A DNA stretch of 35,306 nt from contig JASEHT010000005.1 of assembly GCA_030018675.1 (NCBI GenBank), forward strand, positions 1-35,306, given 5' to 3'. Made by a program: the position numbers and the translations under genes. Under the pieces are notes generated by a model. The model was not told the DNA's origin. It was given only the letters and a program-made list of their open reading frames with translations, and did not search any database. The stretch's first letter is position 1, and every line of letters starts with the position of its first letter. The DNA comes from Smithella sp. (lineage in GTDB: Bacteria; Desulfobacterota; Syntrophia; Syntrophales; Smithellaceae). This document shows, piece after piece, positions 9,113 to 20,806 of the stretch.

Positions 9113-11470
9113 CTATTCCCGGCGTTTGGTTTCCATCTCTTTCAGCTTTTTCCGAGCCTTGACGTTGCCCTGTTCGGCGGCCTTGCGAAACCATTTAATC
9201 GCTTCGGTGGAGTTCTGTTCGACAAAGATGCCGTCCAGATATAAATCCCCGAGCCAGTTCTGGGAGTCTTCATGCCCCTGTTCGGCGGCCTTGGAAAACC
9301 ATTTGACGGCCTCGACAACATTTTTTTCGACACCTTCGCCATAGAAATATTTCACGCCAAGATTATACTGAGCCTCCACGTCCTCCTGTTCGGCGGCTTT
9401 GGAAAACCATTTAATGGCTTCCTGAAAATTCTGTTCGACACCCGTGCCTTCCTGATACAGGATGGCGATATTCATTTGAGCCCTGGTATCTTCCTGCTCG
9501 GCGGCTTTGAGGAACCATTGAGCCGCTTCGACATAATCCTGCGGGACACCCAGGCCGTCCTGATACAGCACGCCCAGATTGAATTGCGCGGTCGGATTTC
9601 CCTGTTGGGCCGCTTTAAGATACCACTTGGCCGCCTCGGCGTCATTCTGCTCAACGCCTTCTCCCTGCTGATACATCCAGGCCAGATTAAACTGCGATTT
9701 CATGTCTTCCTGTTGCGCGGCCTCAAGGAACCATTTCAGCGCTTCGGCATCATTCTGTTCGACCCCATCACCCCTTTGATACATAACGCCCAGATTGTAT
9801 TGGGCGCTGGATATCCCCTGTGCGGCCGCTTTGAGAAACCATTGAGCCGCTTCGGCATAATCCTGTGGGACGCCCAGACCGTCCTGATACATTATGCCCA
9901 GATTAAACTGTGCTCCCGCCTGTCCGAGTGAGGCTGCCTTGTGAAACCACTTGACCGCTTCGGCATCGTTTTGTTCCACGCCTTTCCCTTTATTATACAT
10001 GCTGCCGATCCAGTGCTGGGCATCCGCATTTCCCTGCCGGCCAGCCTTGAGGAACCATTTGACCGCTTCGGCATCGTCTTTTTCGGCGCCTTGGCCGTTG
10101 TAATATGTCAGTCCCATATTAAATTGGGCGTTCGCATCTCCTTGCTCGGCCGCCCGAAGATACCATTTGAATGATTCGGCATCATTCTGATCGACACCGA
10201 TGCCCGCCTTATAGAACATGCCCATGATATTCTGGGCGTTGACATCTCCCTGTTCGGCGGCCTTGAGAAACCATTGCGCCGCTTCGGCATAATCCTGCGG
10301 GACGCCCAGACCGTCCTGATACATCACGCCCAGGTTGAATTGCGCGGCCGGATTTCCCTGTGCCGCCGCTTTCAAAAACCAATGCGCCGCCTCGGCATCG
10401 TTTCTGGAAACACATTCTCCTTCCTGATACATGATTCCCAAATTGAAGTGAGCCGTCGCGTCTTCCTGCTCCGCCGCTTTCAGCAACCATTTTACCGCCT
10501 CGGCATCGTTCTGTTCAACGCCGTTACCTTCCTTATACATCATGCCCAGAAAAGCTTGCGCGTAAGCCTGTCCCTGTTCCGCAGCGTTGAGATACCACTC
10601 GGCCGCCGACATATCTTTCTGATCAGGGTGATCTTCTTCAATGTTTCCATTGGCTTGTTGAACGTCGGCGTGTTGGAGTGAGACGGGTTGGGAAGGCGGC
10701 AATTCGCTTTCGTCATCTTCTTCTTCCGGAACTTCCAGTATATCCAGCACGCTCTGGGCATCGGTGTTGCCCTGTTCGGCTGCCTTGCGATACCATTTTG
10801 CGGCCTCTTTTTCATCCTGAGGAACGCCTTTACCTTCTATATACAGCATGCCCATGATATTCTGGGCTTCCGAGTCTCCTTGTTCGGCCGCCCTGCGATA
10901 CCATTTTGCGGCTTCGGCATCATCCTTCGGAATGAATGTGCCGTCGCGATAGATGCCTGCGAGCCAGACCTGAGCTTCCATATTGCCGTTTTCAGCCGCC
11001 TTGCGATACCACTTCACGGCTTCGGCAAAGTCCTGTGTGACACCTTCACCGTTATGGTACATCCATCCCAGATATAATTGAGCGTCGGGATTTCCCTGCT
11101 GTGCCGATTCGCGATACCATCTGGCCGCTTCGGTATCGATCTGTGGCACGCCTTTCCCTTCCTGATACATCCAGGCCAGGTTTAACTGAGCGTCCGCCTG
11201 GCCCTTTTCCGCCGCTTTGAGAAACCATTTCGCGGCTTTATAGTAGTCCTGCGGCACGCCTTTTCCGTCTTTGTAAATGATTCCCATCATGGTCAGCGCA
11301 TAAGCATTCTTTTGCTGCGCCGCCTTGCGATACCACTTTATCGCTTCAGCATCATCCTGCGGCACGCCTTTCCCTTCCTGATACATCCAGGCCAGGTCCA
11401 ACTGGGCATCGGTGTCTCCCCGTTCGGCCGCTTCCAGCATGTCCGTTAAAGATTCTTCATTTTTATTCAT
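9113..11470 (-). CDS. Sel1-like repeat protein (785 aa)
   Basis: 15-aa N-cap + 6 repeats + one repeat carrying a 30-aa acidic insertion + 13 repeats + 20-aa C-cap = 785 aa; consensus AEQGNAxAQxNLGxMYxxGxGVxQDxAEAxKWxxKA; no evident signal peptide. Confidence 0.93.
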   Translation of the reverse strand: MNKNEESLTDMLEAAERGDTDAQLDLAWMYQEGKGVPQDDAEAIKWYRKAAQQKNAYALTMMGIIYKDGKGVPQDYYKAAKWFLKAAEKGQADAQLNLAWMYQEGKGVPQIDTEAARWYRESAQQGNPDAQLYLGWMYHNGEGVTQDFAEAVKWYRKAAENGNMEAQVWLAGIYRDGTFIPKDDAEAAKWYRRAAEQGDSEAQNIMGMLYIEGKGVPQDEKEAAKWYRKAAEQGNTDAQSVLDILEVPEEEDDESELPPSQPVSLQHADVQQANGNIEEDHPDQKDMSAAEWYLNAAEQGQAYAQAFLGMMYKEGNGVEQNDAEAVKWLLKAAEQEDATAHFNLGIMYQEGECVSRNDAEAAHWFLKAAAQGNPAAQFNLGVMYQDGLGVPQDYAEAAQWFLKAAEQGDVNAQNIMGMFYKAGIGVDQNDAESFKWYLRAAEQGDANAQFNMGLTYYNGQGAEKDDAEAVKWFLKAGRQGNADAQHWIGSMYNKGKGVEQNDAEAVKWFHKAASLGQAGAQFNLGIMYQDGLGVPQDYAEAAQWFLKAAAQGISSAQYNLGVMYQRGDGVEQNDAEALKWFLEAAQQEDMKSQFNLAWMYQQGEGVEQNDAEAAKWYLKAAQQGNPTAQFNLGVLYQDGLGVPQDYVEAAQWFLKAAEQEDTRAQMNIAILYQEGTGVEQNFQEAIKWFSKAAEQEDVEAQYNLGVKYFYGEGVEKNVVEAVKWFSKAAEQGHEDSQNWLGDLYLDGIFVEQNSTEAIKWFRKAAEQGNVKARKKLKEMETKRRE

Positions 11471-14400
11471 AGCTCATATTCCGTGTGTAAAACATTAACC
11501 ATTGAAATTAATATGCTCCGAGTAATCATTATATTATCACATTATTGGGAGGAGAATATATCTATTTGTTCATTCCCGGTTTTATGTCTTTGTGGAAGTC
11601 AGGACTTTTTATCTTTCATTTTGTTAAGCCTGAGTTGCGCGGTGGCGTGTCCCAGTCCGGCCGCCTTGCCGTACCATTTTCGGGCTTCCTCATTGTTCTG
11701 CTCTACTCCCAGACCGTCCTGAAACATCCCTCCCAGATAAAACTGGGCAACAACAATTCCTCGATGACACATGGCGGTCAGATTATTCAGGGCGGTTTCG
11801 TGGCCTTGTTCCGCGGCTTTTCTGTACCACTTTGCCGCCTCTTCATTATCCGGAGGCATTCCTTCGCCTTCTTCATAAATCAAACCCAGCGTAAATTGCG
11901 CAACGGAATTTCCTCTGTTGCCCATTTCAATCAGATTGTTCAGCGCGTCTTCATCTCCATGGCGGATCGCTTTGCGGTACCATTGGACCGCCTCGCTGGT
12001 GTCCTGTTTGACGCCCTGGCCTTTTTCATAAATCAAGCCGAGCGTGAACTGGGCATTGATATCTTCTTTTCCCGCGGCCTTCAAAAACCATTTCACGGCC
12101 TCTTGATCGTCCTGCGCAACGCCTTCGCCGTTTTTGTACATCAACCCCAGGTTATACTGAGCTTGTTCGTTTTCCTGTTCGGCCGCCAATCGATACCATT
12201 TTACGGCTTCGTCGTAATTCCGCGGAACGCCTGTGCCATTGTAGCAGAGAACGCCGAGATTGTTTTGGGCGTCGGCGTTTCCCTGCTCGGCGGCCAGTCG
12301 AAACCACTTGGCTGTTTCGGTGTCATTTCTGGACACGCCTTTTTCATTCAGGAACATAATGCCGAGATTGTTTTGGGCGCCGGCGTCTCCCTGTTCGGCG
12401 GCTTTGAGCAACCATTTCACGGCTTCATCATCACTTTGCTCCACCCCCTCACCGTTTTTATACATCAGGGCGAGATTGTTCCGGGCACGGGTGTTGCCCG
12501 ACTCCGCCGCTTTGAGGAACCATTTCGCCGCTTCGGCGTAATCCTGCTCAACGCCTTCTCCGTTCCGATAGACGATACCGAGATTGTTCATCGCCGTGGT
12601 ATTCCCCTGTCCGGCGGCCTTGAGGAACCATTGTAAGGCTTCGGTGTCGTCCTGAGCAACGCCTTTGCCCGTTTTGTACTTCACCCCAAGATTGCATTGG
12701 GCGTTGGCGTTTCCTTGTTCGGCGGCTTTGATGTACCAGCTTGCGGCTTCAGTATCATTCTGCGGAACACCTTGAGCGGCATCATATTTTAATCCCAGGT
12801 TGAATTGTGCGTTGACATTTCCCTGCTCGGCAGCCTTGAGAAACCATGATACGGATTCGTCATCGCTTTGCAAGACGCCCAATCCGTTTTGATACATTTC
12901 ACCCAGATTAAGCTGAGCGATATCGTTGCCTCTTGCGGCCATATCAATCAGATGAGTGAGCGCATCGGCATTTCCCTGCACGACGGCCTGACGATGCCAT
13001 TGGATTGCCTCATCCTCATCCTGTTGGAGTCCCTGGCCCTTTTCATACTTAACGGCCAGATTAAATTGCGCTTCGGCATTCCCCTGTTCGGCGGCAAGAC
13101 GATACCATTTGACTGCTTCTGAGTGATCCTGCGGAACGCCTTCGCCCTGCTCATACTGCATGGCCAGATTGAACTGGGCGAATGCGTGACCATCTTCCGC
13201 CGCCAGGCGATACCATTTTGCGGCTTCGGCGTCATCCTGTGCCACCACTTTCCCCTTCTGATGCATCAATCCCAAATGGTACCGGGCGTTGGCGTCTTCC
13301 GCCTCGGCGGCTTTGAGAAACCATTTCGCGGCTTCGGCGTCATCCTGCGCCACCCCTTTTCCGTTTTTGTACATCAGTCCCAGATGATAGCAGGCGCCGG
13401 TATCTCCCTGTTCGGCGGCGCCGCGATACCATTGTGCCGCTTCGGCATAATCCTGCGGGAACCCCCGGCCTTCCTGATGCATTTCCGCAAAAAGGATTTG
13501 GGCATAGGTATTGCCGTGCCGGGCGGCCTTGTGCAGCCATTTTGCCGCTTCGGCGTCCTCCTGTGATACGCCTTCTCCTCTGCGGTACATCAAACCGAGA
13601 TGGATATACGCGCGCGCATCTCCCTGTTCGGCGGCCTTGCGAAACCAGTGCGCCGCCTTTTCATCATCCGCGCCGGCGCCTTCACCGTGATAATACTGCC
13701 ATGCCAGTTTATACTGCGCCTCGGCGCTGCCTTGTCCGGCGGCACATTGCAGCCACTTGACTGCTTCGGCATCGTCCTGTAAAACCCCCGTTCCTTCCTG
13801 ATAGATTTCAGCCAGAGTGGTTTGGGCGGTTACATTTCCCTTGTGGCTCATGACCATCAGATTATTCAGCGCCGCCGAATCTCCCCGCTGTGCCGATTGG
13901 ACAAAACAGGCGAGCGCTTCCGCATCATTCTGCTGAACGCCTTCGCCCTTATAATATTTTACGCCCAGATTACATAAAGCGCTCACTTTTCCTTGTCCGG
14001 CGGCACATTGCAGCCACTTGACCGCTTCGACATCATCCCGCTCGACGCCTTCGCCTTTTTCATACAGCACGGCCAGCTGAAGCTGCGCGTCTGAAATATC
14101 CTGATCGGCCGCCAGGCGAAACCAGGTCGCGGCTTCAGCGTCATCCCGCGCAACGCCTGTGCCTTCATGGTACATCAGCCCCAGCAAATACTGTGCTTGC
14201 GCGATTCCCCGCTCGGCGGCCATGCGAAACCATTTCAGTGCTTCCTCTTCGTCATGAGGAACGCCTTCTCCGTTACGGCACATCCATCCGAGCTGATACT
14301 GGGCGTCGGGGTTTCCTTTTCCGGCGGCTTTCCGGTACCATTTTGCCGCTTCGAAATAATCCCGGGGAAGGCCACTTCCTTCCCGGTACATTTCCGCCAA

Positions 14401-16095
14401 AATGCTTTGAGCGTACGTATTATCCAGCTGCGCCGCCTTCTGATACCATTGGACAGCCTGAGCGAGATCCCGGGGGACGCCCTTGCCTTCCTGGTACATC
14501 AATGCGAGATTCATCTGGGCGAAAACATTTTCCTGCTCGGCCGCCAGGCGAAACCATTTCGCGGCTTCGGCATCATCCTGAACAACACCTTTCCCGTTGC
14601 GATACAGCCATCCCAGATGATACTGGGCGTCGGCGCTTCCTTTTCCCGACGCCTTGCGGTACCATTTTTCAGCTTCCGCGAAATCCTGCGGGACGCCTTC
14701 TCCGGCATGATACATCGCTCCCAGATAGAACTGCGCTTCGGCAAAGTCCTGCACCGCGGATTTCCGGAACCATTTTGCGGCTTCAGCATCGTCAAGAGGA
14801 AATCCGTCACCCTTGATGTACATCAAGCCCAGATAAAATTGCGCATCGGCCAGATCCTGTTTTGCCGCTTTGCTGTACCATTTCACCGCTTCGGCATAAT
14901 CCTGCGGGAAAATTTTGCCTTCTTCATGCATCCGTCCGATATTGAACTGAGCGACGGCGCTGCCTTTTTCGCTCATGGACTTCAGACTCTTTAACGCCTT
15001 AGTGTCTCCCTGTTCCGCCGCCTTGCGGTACCACTTTGCCGCTTCAGCGTCGTCTTGAGCAACATAGTTCCCTTTGTGATACATTTCTCCGAGACTTCGC
15101 TGCGCCTTGGTGTCGCCCTGTTTTGCCGCCTTGTGGTACCATTTCACCGCTTCCGTAAAATTCTGCGGCACACCGTTGCCGAAGGAATACATCGATCCCA
15201 GATTGAATTGCGCCTTCGCATCCCCTTGTTTGGCGGCCTTTCGGTACCATTTTGAAGCTTCCGCATAATCCTGCGGGACGCCCTTGCCGTTCTCATATTT
15301 CACGCCGAGACTGTTTTGAGCGTTCGCGTCTCCCTGTTCGGCGGCTTTGCGAAACCAATTGACGGCCTCCGTGTCATTCTTTGGCACGCCGTCTCCCTGT
15401 TCAAAGATCAGCCCCAGCGCAAATTGTGCCTCCGCATCTCCCTGTTCGGCGGCCTTGCGAAACCAGTTGGCGGCTTCCCTGTCATCTTTGGCCACGCCCC
15501 GGCCTTCTTTGTATAGCAAGCCGAGTTTATACTGCGCTGAAGCAAGCCCCTGTTCCGCCGCTTTGCTGTACCATTTCACCGCTTCGGCATAATCCTGCGG
15601 GAGATCCTCGCCGCTGTGGTATCTCGAACCAAAGTTGTACTGGGCCAGTGCGTCCCCGTTTTCAGCTTCTTTTCCGTACCATTTCATGGCTTCGGCATGA
15701 TCCTGCTCGACGCCTTTGCCGTTATCGTACATCCATCCCAGTGTGTTCTGCGCGATCGTGTTTCCCTGTTCGGCGGCCTTGCGGTACCATGTTGCGGCTT
15801 CAACATCATCCTGTCCGACGCCGTTTCCATGGTGATACATGGCTCCCAGATGTACCTGGGCGGCGACATTTCCCTGCTCGGCGGCCTTGCAAAGCCACTT
15901 GATCGCTTCATCATGATCAGGCGCAACGCCTTCTCCGGCATGGTACATTAATCCCAGATTGAATTGCGCCTCCGCGACATCCTGTTCGGCCGCTTTACGA
16001 AACCATTGGAGCGCCTCGTCATCATCCTGCGGAATTTCTTCACCGTGCCGGTGCATCAAACCGAGATGGCACTGTGCCTCCGCGTTTCCCTGGTC
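9140..16095 (-). repeat. 108-bp coding tandem repeat array (Sel1 units) across two genes, interrupted by the 11471-11598 intergenic gap
   Basis: 36-codon periodicity visible in both proteins; recurring DNA motif such as 'gcggccttgcgataccatttygcsgcttcggcatcatcctgcggracgcc'. Confidence 0.9.
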
Positions 16096-16140
16096 GGCCG
16101 CTTCATGGATTTCTGCTAAAGAGAGTTTTTTGATGTCCAT
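11599..16140 (-). CDS. giant Sel1-like repeat protein (1513 aa)
   Basis: 15-aa N-cap + 39 full 36-aa Sel1 repeats + five 15-aa half-repeat insertions + 19-aa C-cap = 1513 aa exactly; no evident signal peptide or TM. Confidence 0.93.
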   Translation of the reverse strand: MDIKKLSLAEIHEAADQGNAEAQCHLGLMHRHGEEIPQDDDEALQWFRKAAEQDVAEAQFNLGLMYHAGEGVAPDHDEAIKWLCKAAEQGNVAAQVHLGAMYHHGNGVGQDDVEAATWYRKAAEQGNTIAQNTLGWMYDNGKGVEQDHAEAMKWYGKEAENGDALAQYNFGSRYHSGEDLPQDYAEAVKWYSKAAEQGLASAQYKLGLLYKEGRGVAKDDREAANWFRKAAEQGDAEAQFALGLIFEQGDGVPKNDTEAVNWFRKAAEQGDANAQNSLGVKYENGKGVPQDYAEASKWYRKAAKQGDAKAQFNLGSMYSFGNGVPQNFTEAVKWYHKAAKQGDTKAQRSLGEMYHKGNYVAQDDAEAAKWYRKAAEQGDTKALKSLKSMSEKGSAVAQFNIGRMHEEGKIFPQDYAEAVKWYSKAAKQDLADAQFYLGLMYIKGDGFPLDDAEAAKWFRKSAVQDFAEAQFYLGAMYHAGEGVPQDFAEAEKWYRKASGKGSADAQYHLGWLYRNGKGVVQDDAEAAKWFRLAAEQENVFAQMNLALMYQEGKGVPRDLAQAVQWYQKAAQLDNTYAQSILAEMYREGSGLPRDYFEAAKWYRKAAGKGNPDAQYQLGWMCRNGEGVPHDEEEALKWFRMAAERGIAQAQYLLGLMYHEGTGVARDDAEAATWFRLAADQDISDAQLQLAVLYEKGEGVERDDVEAVKWLQCAAGQGKVSALCNLGVKYYKGEGVQQNDAEALACFVQSAQRGDSAALNNLMVMSHKGNVTAQTTLAEIYQEGTGVLQDDAEAVKWLQCAAGQGSAEAQYKLAWQYYHGEGAGADDEKAAHWFRKAAEQGDARAYIHLGLMYRRGEGVSQEDAEAAKWLHKAARHGNTYAQILFAEMHQEGRGFPQDYAEAAQWYRGAAEQGDTGACYHLGLMYKNGKGVAQDDAEAAKWFLKAAEAEDANARYHLGLMHQKGKVVAQDDAEAAKWYRLAAEDGHAFAQFNLAMQYEQGEGVPQDHSEAVKWYRLAAEQGNAEAQFNLAVKYEKGQGLQQDEDEAIQWHRQAVVQGNADALTHLIDMAARGNDIAQLNLGEMYQNGLGVLQSDDESVSWFLKAAEQGNVNAQFNLGLKYDAAQGVPQNDTEAASWYIKAAEQGNANAQCNLGVKYKTGKGVAQDDTEALQWFLKAAGQGNTTAMNNLGIVYRNGEGVEQDYAEAAKWFLKAAESGNTRARNNLALMYKNGEGVEQSDDEAVKWLLKAAEQGDAGAQNNLGIMFLNEKGVSRNDTETAKWFRLAAEQGNADAQNNLGVLCYNGTGVPRNYDEAVKWYRLAAEQENEQAQYNLGLMYKNGEGVAQDDQEAVKWFLKAAGKEDINAQFTLGLIYEKGQGVKQDTSEAVQWYRKAIRHGDEDALNNLIEMGNRGNSVAQFTLGLIYEEGEGMPPDNEEAAKWYRKAAEQGHETALNNLTAMCHRGIVVAQFYLGGMFQDGLGVEQNNEEARKWYGKAAGLGHATAQLRLNKMKDKKS

Positions 16141-16164: not shown

Positions 16165-16485
16165 TTACTTCCGATCAGTATTCCCTAGGTGTGTTTTGAC
16201 GGTCTTGAAAGCGATGTCTGCGTCTCTGGTAAAAAGCCACCATTGGGGTTTTGTCGTGTGAGGACCCTTCTCTTGATCGCGCCCGCGGCAATAAAACCAG
16301 TGACCGAAGCGCTCGATAGTAACAAATGGATGGTTGCCGGTGCAAAGAATCGAACACGGACGGATTTCTTTGAAAAAAATTGTTTCGTCCGGCACTTCTT
16401 CATTGGCCATGTCTTCCGGTAATTCAATGTGAGAAACATCAATTCCTTCGGCCTCTTTCTTATCCAGCCACTTTGAAATCTTCAT
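16165..16485 (-). CDS. hypothetical protein (106 aa)
   Basis: Complete ORF directly upstream of and co-directional with the giant Sel1 gene (24-nt gap); MKISKWLDKKEAEGIDVSHIELPEDMANEEVPDETIFFKEIRPCSIL... Confidence 0.6.
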   Translation of the reverse strand: MKISKWLDKKEAEGIDVSHIELPEDMANEEVPDETIFFKEIRPCSILCTGNHPFVTIERFGHWFYCRGRDQEKGPHTTKPQWWLFTRDADIAFKTVKTHLGNTDRK

Positions 16486-16499
16486 TTTTCCTCATGTCG

Positions 16500-16748
16500 T
16501 TAAAAAATAGGCTGATGGGATTTTTTGCCGTAAACCCGTTCATACGCTTTACAAAAAGGACAAAGGTTCCCTTCGATTTTTTTCACAAACCAGAATGCCG
16601 CGCCTTTTTGCTGCTTGCGGGCGTGTTTACACACGGGACAGGTCAGACAGAACTTTGCCATTTTGCGATCTCTTTCAGAAACTTTAGGTTTTTGCGATGG
16701 AGCTTTTGCTTTCACTTTTGACTTCGCTTTGGATTTCACTTTTGCCAT
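16500..16748 (-). CDS. small basic zinc-ribbon-like protein (82 aa)
   Basis: MAKVKSKAKSKVKAKAPSQKPK... CLTCPVCKHARKQ... NLCPFCKAYERVYGKK: Lys-rich N-terminus plus paired Cys motifs; AAAGGA SD upstream of this ATG (ORF track extends to 16808). Confidence 0.65.
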   Translation of the reverse strand: MAKVKSKAKSKVKAKAPSQKPKVSERDRKMAKFCLTCPVCKHARKQQKGAAFWFVKKIEGNLCPFCKAYERVYGKKSHQPIF

Positions 16749-16904
16749 TGATTGATTTCCTTTGCGGGCGCCGGTTGCGCCATGAAAATTTTGAAACGAG
16801 TATATCAATATGAATTTTATGTGTCAAAGTACTTTATCGATGATTTCATATGGCGGAAATTCACAATAATGTAGTATAAGGAAGACGGGGAGATTTGTAT
16901 ATGT

Positions 16905-18230
16905 ATGGATTCCTATAATGTGGTCATCATCGGTTCCGGTCCCGCCGGTCTGTTCGCGGCCATCGAGCTTGAACGTCTGGGTGTGGACGGTATTGCCGTC
17001 GTGGATCGCAATCCTTATACCGCCGGAGGGTTGTTGAACGACGGGAAACTGAATTTTGATTACCGGATCGGCATTGATCTGGCTGAGCTCCGGATTGACA
17101 TTGAGACCGCGAGGCGGATGATGGAGGAAATCAGGGAGGTCTTTATCCGTTTCCCGAAATGCAGGCAGGTGACCTTCGTTGACCGGAATAAAAAAATCGA
17201 GGCGTTGGGGAATATTGCGAAGGAGAACGGCGCTCAATTCATTGCGCCGGAGCAGTGGCACTGGGGAACGGACAACGGGAAAGCGGTTGTCGATTATCTG
17301 AGAAGCCATCTCCAAAAGACAAAATTCCTGCTGGGAACAACGGTCGATTCCATCGTCTGCCAAAGCAACGGCACGTATCAAGTTTTATGCAGCCAGGGGC
17401 GAAAAAAGAGTCGCTGCGCAGCGAAAATTATCATGGCCGCTCCGGGACGCAGCGGAGCCTATTGGTTCCGTGATCTAGCCACGAAGCTGAAGATTCTTCA
17501 TAATTTCGGTCCGATTGACGTGGGAATCCGAGTCGAACTGAACAGAAAATTCTATGACGATGTGACCGATGTCGTTTACGATCCGAAATTTATTTTCCGT
17601 ACGGCGCGGCACGGCGATAAGGTCAGGACGTTCTGTACCAATCCCGGCGGCCGTGTCCGGCCGGAAGACTATTGCCAATTCAAGCTGGTGAACGGAGATG
17701 CGCTTTCCCGGCGCAAAACGCTCAACACGAATTTCGCCCTGATCAACACCGTTTCCTTGACCGCGCCTTTTTCCGATACCACCGAGTTCGGTCAGATGAT
17801 CGCCAAACAATTTTTCCTGCTGGGGGGAGGCAGGCCGATTGTTCAAAGGGTGGGGGACTTCCGGGAGGGGAGAAGAAGTTCCGCATCGACATTCAACAGC
17901 GCCAGCCGTCATTTCGAGGTGTGCAGGGCAACGTATAACGCGACGCCCGGTGATATCACGCTGGGCTTGCCCGCCCGCATCATCGATAATCTCTGGGAGT
18001 CCCTGAAAAAAATCGACAAGATTGTTCCGGGCATTCTTCACCCGTCCACGCTTCTGTACGCGCCGGAGATAAAATTTTTCGACACGCATTTTATAACGGA
18101 TGAAAATCTGGAAACCAATGTGAAGGGCATCTTTGTGGGCGGCGACGGCGCGGGGAAAAGCCGCGGCATTGTGGGGGCGGGCATTTCAGGAATCATCGCC
18201 GCCCGCGGGATTGCCGGAAAATATTTTTGA
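16905..18230 (+). CDS. FAD-dependent dehydrogenase (COG2509-like)
   Basis: 441 aa; N-terminal VVIIGSGPAGLFAAIELERLG (Rossmann GxGxxG), C-terminal GIFVGGDGAGKSRGIVGAGISGIIAARGIA. Confidence 0.88.
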   Translation: MDSYNVVIIGSGPAGLFAAIELERLGVDGIAVVDRNPYTAGGLLNDGKLNFDYRIGIDLAELRIDIETARRMMEEIREVFIRFPKCRQVTFVDRNKKIEALGNIAKENGAQFIAPEQWHWGTDNGKAVVDYLRSHLQKTKFLLGTTVDSIVCQSNGTYQVLCSQGRKKSRCAAKIIMAAPGRSGAYWFRDLATKLKILHNFGPIDVGIRVELNRKFYDDVTDVVYDPKFIFRTARHGDKVRTFCTNPGGRVRPEDYCQFKLVNGDALSRRKTLNTNFALINTVSLTAPFSDTTEFGQMIAKQFFLLGGGRPIVQRVGDFREGRRSSASTFNSASRHFEVCRATYNATPGDITLGLPARIIDNLWESLKKIDKIVPGILHPSTLLYAPEIKFFDTHFITDENLETNVKGIFVGGDGAGKSRGIVGAGISGIIAARGIAGKYF

Positions 18231-18919: not shown

Positions 18920-18993
18920 TGGGGAATCGTTCAATGGTAGGACAACGGACTCTGACTCCGTTTATTAAGGTTCGAATCCTTATTCCCCAGCCA
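18920..18993 (+). tRNA. tRNA-Gln (anticodon CTG), CCA encoded
   Basis: Cloverleaf by eye: acceptor TGGGGAA/TTCCCCA, anticodon stem-loop ACGGA-CTCTGAC-TCCGT, T-arm TAAGG-TTCGAAT-CCTTA, G73 + CCA. Confidence 0.93.
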
Positions 18994-19045: not shown

Positions 19046-20806
19046 TTATCCCTTGTCTCCCCCGGCGATTTTTGCCCATGAATCACGCAGGGCGACAACA
19101 CGGTTGAAGACAAGTTTTTCCGTTTTCGAATCCTTGGTGTCCACGCAAAAATATCCCAATCGTTCAAACTGATGTTGGCTTCCCGGCTTCGCTTGTTGCA
19201 GGCTTTGCTCGACAAAGCAGCCGGTCAGGGTTTCCAACGAATCCGGGTTTAGATAGCCGAGAAAATCTTCCTCGCTTCCGGGATTTTCGATCTTAAACAG
19301 CCTGTCGTACAGCCGCACCTCGGCTGGTGCGCAATGTTCGGCCGATAACCAGTGAATCACGCCCGGCACCTTGCGTCCGTCCGCGGGCGGCGCGTTGCGT
19401 GTCTGCGGGTCATAGGTGCAATGCAATTCCACGACGTCGCCGGTGCGTTCGTCTTTTACCATGCTTTCAAATTTTATAATGTAAGCGTTTCGGAGACGGA
19501 CTTCACGCCCCGGACCCAAACGATGATATTTTTTCGGCGGGTCTTCCATAAAATCTTCGCGCTCGATATATAATTCTCTGGAGAAAGACACTTTTCTCGT
19601 GCCCATATCGGGATTTTGCGGATGATTGGCGCATTCGAACTGTTCCGTCTTATCTTCGGGATAATTGTCGATCACAACGCGCAGGGGGCGCAAAACACAC
19701 ATGGTTCTGGGTGCGTGTTCGTTGAGATCCTCGCGTACGCAATGTTCCAGCAGCGCCACATCAATCAGATTATCGTTTTTAGCAACGCCGATTTGGACGC
19801 AGAAATTCCGGATGGCCTCCGGCGTATAACCCCGACGGCGCATTCCCGTCACGGTCGGCATGCGCGGATCGTCCCATCCCTGCACATATTCTTTGTTAAC
19901 CAATTCGATGAGGCGACGCTTGCTTAGGACCGTGTAGCTCAAATTCAGACGCGCGAATTCAATCTGCCGGGGACGCGGGCCGGTGATCAGCCGCTCCACG
20001 ATCCAGTCATACAGGGGCCGGTTGTTTTCGAACTCCAGTGTGCAGATCGAATGCGTGATGCCTTCCAGCGCGTCGGAGAGGCAGTGGGCGAAATCATACA
20101 TCGGATAAATGACCCAATTTGTTCCTGTGCGGTAATGCGGTTCCCGTTTGATTCGGTAGATAACAGGGTCGCGCATGACAATGTTGGCCGAGGCCATGTC
20201 AATCTTCGCGCGCAGAGTATGAGCGCCGTCGGCGAATTCGCCTAACCGCATGCGTTGGAACATGTCCAAATTTTCTTCCACGGAGCGGTTACGGTAAGGA
20301 CTGTCTTTCCCCGGTTCGGTAAACGTGCCGCGCTGTTCCCTGACTTCATCCGGCGTCAGGCTGCAAATATAGGCGTTGCCGGATTTGATAAGTTCAACAG
20401 CAAACTGATATAGTCTTTCAAAATAGTCCGAAGCGTAAAAAAGACGATCATCCCAGTCGAGACCCAGCCAGCGGATATCGTTGATGATGGATTGCACGAA
20501 TTCCATGGATTCGCCTGCCGGGTCGGTATCGTCCAGCCTCAAATTGCAGGTTCCTTTATACTGGGCGGCAATGCCGAAATTGAGGCATACGGATTTGGCG
20601 TGTCCGATATGGATATAACCGTTCGGTTCCGGCGGAAAACGGGTGGCGACTTTTCCATCATTCTTGCCGGTTTGCAGGTCATGATCAATCATGTCGCGGA
20701 TAAAATCGGTCGGATGTGATGCTGTATCAGGTGACATTTTTTTATAAACTCCTTGAATCGCATGAAATGCAGGCTGAAACCTATAATATTCATTAAAATA
20801 TATCAA
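19046..20806 (-). CDS. glnS: glutaminyl-tRNA synthetase
   Basis: 586-aa ORF; true start probably [43 protein letters not shown] (HIGH), [11 protein letters not shown] (KMSKS-like), GlnRS-type C-terminal domains. Confidence 0.96.

Follow-up and report, generated by a model that had tools for sequence, protein, structure and literature searches.

The usual picture of a solenoid repeat protein is a regular array capped at its ends. In the 35,306-nucleotide stretch of DNA from Smithella (Desulfobacterota) analyzed here (the window), one gene encodes a giant Sel1-repeat protein whose array is interrupted at five places, which raises the question of what these interruptions are and how they might shape the protein. 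The open reading frame, at 11599..16140 on the minus strand, translates to 1,513 amino acids (aa). Two independent parses, one by anchor spacing and the other by a position-specific scoring matrix (PSSM) with dynamic programming, gave 39 gap-free Sel1 units of exactly 36 aa each in the order 10-S-10-S-8-S-9-S-1-S-1, where S is a 15-aa insertion. Both parses bore out an earlier note on this DNA, in which 39 full repeats, five 15-aa insertions, and two caps summed to 1,513 residues. In the register used here, the N- and C-terminal caps are 13 and 21 aa, two residues off the 15 and 19 of that note, with the sum unchanged.

The repeats themselves are ordinary Sel1-like repeats (SLRs; PF08238). Units of 36 aa that match the Sel1 profile follow one another in tandem, and nearly all units, among the matches listed, passed the Pfam Sel1 cutoff singly. 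DSSP analysis of two AlphaFold2 models (see below) showed two 13-residue helices per unit, with a 7-residue intrarepeat loop and a 3-residue interrepeat loop, as in the published values. A trait that is usual for SLR proteins without defining them, the uninterrupted alternation of helix 1 and helix 2 with caps at the ends only, is absent because five orphan helix-1 elements sit inside the array; membership in PF08238 is unaffected. More specific identities were rejected. The matches to the NCBIfam equivalogs MerG, AlgK, MotX, and ExoR were driven by the repeats and consisted of many partial-profile stretches; the protein scored below the cutoffs for AlgK, MotX, and ExoR and exceeded that for MerG only when 23 partial stretches were summed. 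PtuA, the defense ATPase of Septu and retron Ec78, was rejected because the protein has no AAA ATPase domain. The PtuA match covered about 57 residues at the N terminus of the profile, no single stretch was significant, and the Sel1 units together with the insertions account for the whole protein.

The five insertions are all read on the minus strand. S1 lies at 14977..15021 (residues 374 to 388, 15 aa; helix text AAEQGDTKALKSLKSMSEKG, with a predicted 12-residue helix), S2 at 13852..13896 (residues 749 to 763; SAQRGDSAALNNLMVMSHKG), S3 at 12943..12987 (residues 1052 to 1066; AVVQGNADALTHLIDMAARG), S4 at 11926..11970 (residues 1391 to 1405; AIRHGDEDALNNLIEMGNRG), and S5 at 11773..11817 (residues 1442 to 1456; AAEQGHETALNNLTAMCHRG). 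The five coordinate ranges given for them in the earlier note matched the helix text exactly. A lone helix at the C terminus (11602..11664, minus strand; AAGLGHATAQLRLNKMKDKKS) is cap-like, with a pattern related to that of the insertions.

To which half of a repeat do the insertions correspond? When they were scored against the halves of the regular repeats, their A-scores were 11 to 21 (real A halves, 37; shuffled inserts, -27) and their B-scores were -1 to 7.5 (real B halves, 43). The A-score was higher than the B-score in all five, which ruled out helix B. They were also not copies of the C-terminal cap, to which the likeness was weak (C-cap minus A log-odds of 3.6, versus 20 for C-caps). 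All 20 insertions from four species (see below) shared the signature G-[ND]-x2-A-L-N-N-L-x2-M-[CSAG]-x-[RK]-G, with an A, an L, a small residue, and an R or K at fixed positions in every one. L was found at position +5 in 85% of the insertions and in 2% of 904 regular A halves, and R or K was found at +14 in 100% of the insertions. Relative to these 904 halves, L stands in place of the Q that follows the A, the G that follows the second L is missing, and a small residue takes the place of the Y. In the EsiB structure, the Q, G, and Y positions mediate contacts between helix 1 and its own helix 2, and the conserved A packs on the neighboring repeat (PMC3851747). The insertions thus keep the interrepeat A and lose Q, G, and Y, which fits a helix 1 that has a neighbor before it and no helix 2 of its own. 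Judged from its sequence, each insertion is an orphan helix 1. The proposal that each insertion duplicates helix A was essentially right, since all are A-like by score, but they are not plain copies, as they have a conserved signature of their own; that one half-repeat type is conserved at all five sites held in every insertion. The level of conservation was not higher than that of ordinary half-repeats (0.53, versus 0.61 to 0.64).

We then looked for orthologs by searching 60 relatives and by using an insertion-specific DNA pattern. Full-length orthologs were found in three other Smithella genomes (G015, G002, and G013), with 55 to 66% identity over the aligned parts and with all five insertions in the same order. 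The architecture was 10-S-11-S-8-S-9-S-1-S-1 in G015 and in G002, where one unit was degenerate, and 9-S-11-S-8-S-9-S-1-S-1 in G013, where one unit had 7 extra residues. The second block of the window copy is one unit shorter than in the orthologs, and only two whole-repeat length changes were found among the four proteins. Chance or an assembly artifact is excluded, because the five insertions recur, with their order unchanged, in three independent assemblies of Smithella. The insertions are therefore neither randomly placed nor absent in these homologs, with block lengths nearly unchanged, and they predate the split of these species. To call the breaks "designed," as had been suggested, is too strong, since descent alone would hold their positions where gain or loss of whole repeats is so rare. 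Of 17 Smithella genomes, several of them incomplete, 4 were found to carry the giant gene, which is therefore an accessory gene and not a core function. A stricter pattern for internal insertions gave no match in a phylum-wide sample of 394 other genomes, which did not include the three ortholog genomes. Single internal examples were seen in two other proteins. A 1,310-aa, otherwise different Sel1 protein of Smithella sp. SCADC (L056, 6233-10165, plus strand) has one internal orphan helix, and its Sel1 array is fused to a C-terminal region of about 720 aa in which a membrane segment is apparent. The second, an unrelated proteobacterial Sel1 protein (L111, 1649-2767, minus strand), has one internal 15-aa half-repeat and an N-terminal cap half-repeat. 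Our literature search turned up no paper on the Sel1 proteins of Smithella and no description of Sel1 half-repeats within arrays.

The structure was predicted with AlphaFold2 in two overlapping parts. The model of residues 980 to 1513 had a mean pLDDT of 95.1 and a pTM of 0.75; that of residues 266 to 1138 had a mean pLDDT of 91.9 and a pTM of 0.48, so that the relative placement of the blocks in this longer model is uncertain. All five insertions were modeled as one 12-residue helix each, flanked on either side by turns of 3 residues (4 residues at one edge of S2 and S4). The pLDDT at the insertions was as high as in their neighbors in both models, with no local drop. Confident helices and short turns make loose hinges unlikely, and the insertions look rigid, contrary to the flexible hinges that had been proposed at these sites. 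One added helix, an odd number, in an antiparallel stack means that the helix direction reverses after each insertion, and a kink or a swap of the concave face would be a natural result of this helix parity. We compared the models with the solved SLR structure of LceB by using Foldseek. LceB aligned at 4.2 Å over 359 columns to the model with a 324-aa uninterrupted block and at 9.4 to 10.2 Å over 385 to 398 columns to the other model, in which no block exceeds 360 aa, so that an insertion was crossed; two other LceB chains aligned to the first model at only about 7 Å. The better fit to one block than to a stretch across a break weakly supports a change of direction in the predicted structures.

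The genes around the giant gene name no pathway. Directly downstream lies a second Sel1 gene (9113..11470, minus strand), which is probably in the same operon and encodes a 785-aa protein of 6 units, a 66-aa acidic linker, and 13 units, with no orphan helix. It has an adjoining counterpart in G013, and the 6-linker-13 type recurs in G003. Two other Sel1 proteins of this genome, on contigs C77 (L009) and C188 (L010) of G000, also have arrays split by long acidic linkers; the linkers in the 785-aa protein, L009, and L010 are 66, 215, and 122 aa long. Directly upstream, after a 24-bp gap, is a gene for a conserved 106-aa protein without a Pfam or NCBIfam match (16165..16485, minus strand), in the same order in G013 and G015. 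This family is present in 29 of the 60 relatives and stands directly before a Sel1 gene in four Smithella genomes. In G003, a different Sel1 gene occupies the slot of the giant gene, and in most relatives the slot has no Sel1 gene, a pattern indicative of Sel1 gene gain and loss. Possibly the first gene of the operon is that for a small basic CxxC/CPFC (zinc-ribbon-like) protein (16500..16748, minus strand), which had no family match and has a counterpart in G015. Upstream of it, a putative sigma-70-like promoter (TTGACA-17-TATACT with TG; 16799..16827, minus strand) was recognized by consensus match, with 11 of 12 positions matching. Two small open reading frames on the minus strand (16824-17381 and 17475-18089) were discarded because they are antisense to a gene for an FAD-dependent oxidoreductase. 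Elsewhere in the window, a tRNA-Gln(ctg) gene (18920-18993, plus strand) lies near a glutamyl/glutaminyl-tRNA synthetase gene (19046-20806). Sel1 proteins are expanded genus-wide in Smithella (G000 to G016), with many open frames per genome, up to 1,378 to 1,572 aa, and the number of Sel1 genes is far above that in most other members of the order.

What could such a protein do? On reading the sequences, we saw no N-terminal hydrophobic stretch in any of the four orthologs, in line with the lack of a signal peptide reported in the earlier note, and the protein is probably cytoplasmic. The repeat-by-repeat conservation between species gave a kappa of 0.29 at the concave helix-1 positions 7, 10, 14, and 17, columns that were picked after inspection of the table, versus 0.10 at outward helix-2 positions (95% confidence interval of the difference, 0.10 to 0.25); a helical-moment test of concave conservation was not significant (shuffles reaching the value, 0.35). 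The concave conservation favors a partner-binding groove and hence a scaffold. We infer a cytoplasmic location, a scaffold role, and a reversal of the binding face. Specifically, the protein may be a cytoplasmic alpha-solenoid scaffold of six SLR blocks in one chain, joined by five orphan helix-1 elements, a reading to which we give about an even chance. Toward the preceding block, the orphan helix would act as a helix 1, packing on the last helix 2; toward the following block, it would act as an N-terminal cap, packing on the first helix 1. One block would thus end and the next begin without a flexible linker. With one helix added, all helix directions would be reversed after every insertion, and the concave partner-binding face would point to a different side in each successive block. 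The superhelix would then be stiff and segmented, and its several grooves would each have an orientation of their own. More tentatively, and at clearly less than an even chance, the orphan helices could act as parity switches, with the concave face swapped at each and the binding grooves alternating on opposite sides. If true, this would build a multisided rigid scaffold from one repeat type, a device that our literature search did not find described for Sel1 proteins.

In other Syntrophales, this half-repeat motif occurred solely where a Sel1 array begins (0 units before it and 1 to 6 after it), usually just after a signal peptide, and in a broader scan the N-terminal kind made up most of the Sel1 matches of the half-repeat among the matches listed. 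The insertions are most aptly described as cap-like half-repeats within an array. Since the half-repeat is elsewhere in Syntrophales an N-terminal cap only, the giant protein resembles a chain of several arrays with cap-like helices at the joints. This could be taken literally, with shorter Sel1 genes fused and the insertions being their old N-terminal caps; the many Sel1 genes per Smithella genome are in favor of it. However, the blocks show no block-level similarity, and the caps found elsewhere come after signal peptides and show no close sequence similarity. We consider such fusion unlikely, and it would be compatible with the orphan-helix scaffold, which concerns structure. Duplication of whole blocks was rejected as the origin, because the best lags among the repeats are not at block lengths and no lag at those lengths stands out.

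Two further explanations leave the insertions with a different role or with none. A strict 36-residue period that is broken at conserved places might suggest bending points between stiff blocks, but the insertions are predicted to be well-formed helices flanked by short turns without any fall in pLDDT, and the paralogs with split arrays use long acidic linkers instead; flexible hinges are very improbable. Alternatively, the insertions may be neutral scars, that is, repeats that lost the 21-residue loop and helix 2, or partial duplications, tolerated since a lone helix packs and kept by descent. The length of 15 residues is 36 minus 21, the sequence is A-like, conservation does not exceed that of ordinary half-repeats, and descent could fix the positions when only two whole-repeat changes separate four orthologs. 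The single internal examples in the SCADC paralog and in the unrelated proteobacterial protein also speak for this explanation. Nevertheless, a signature common to all five copies is absent from the 904 regular A halves; random scars from different repeats should not converge on it, and it was kept in four species while the remainder diverged to about 56%. We regard neutral scars as possible, with a probability well short of one-half. The five-break architecture is real, conserved, and unusual, and the mechanism proposed for the orphan-helix scaffold is plausible. Cap-like half-repeats at five conserved places inside an array show how a chain might be divided into segments and redirected with no need for linkers, which is relevant to understanding large bacterial scaffolds and to repeat-protein design, and they draw attention to the unstudied expansion of Sel1 proteins across the syntrophic genus Smithella.

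Known Sel1 proteins share the fold of the giant protein and differ from it in how the array is built. The best sequence match in the PDB was EsiB (c5321) of E. coli (PDB 4bwr), with 11 Sel1-like repeats. It has the same 13-7-13-3 helix/loop pattern, a concave helix 1, and capping helices at the ends; it is about one-third the size, and no orphan helix stands inside the array in the part of the published repeat table consulted (PMC3851747). LceB of Legionella pneumophila (PDB 8sxq), with 8 Sel1-like repeats, has the same fold, with a TM score of 0.88 to one block, and it is described as having noncanonical helices at the N terminus and, at the C terminus, a capping helix that is unpaired. Unlike the giant protein, it has caps at the ends only and a secretion signal, and conserved concave residues are not reported. 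The longest bacterial Sel1 chain matched, a 523-residue protein of Oxalobacter formigenes (PDB 6ok3), is one-third the size and aligned only at 13 to 14 Å over its length. Also comparable are the other Smithella Sel1 proteins, such as the 785-aa neighbor, which share the repeat type, the genus, and the lack of an evident signal peptide. In these proteins, however, the blocks are parted by long acidic linkers, whereas in the giant protein they are joined by single helices.
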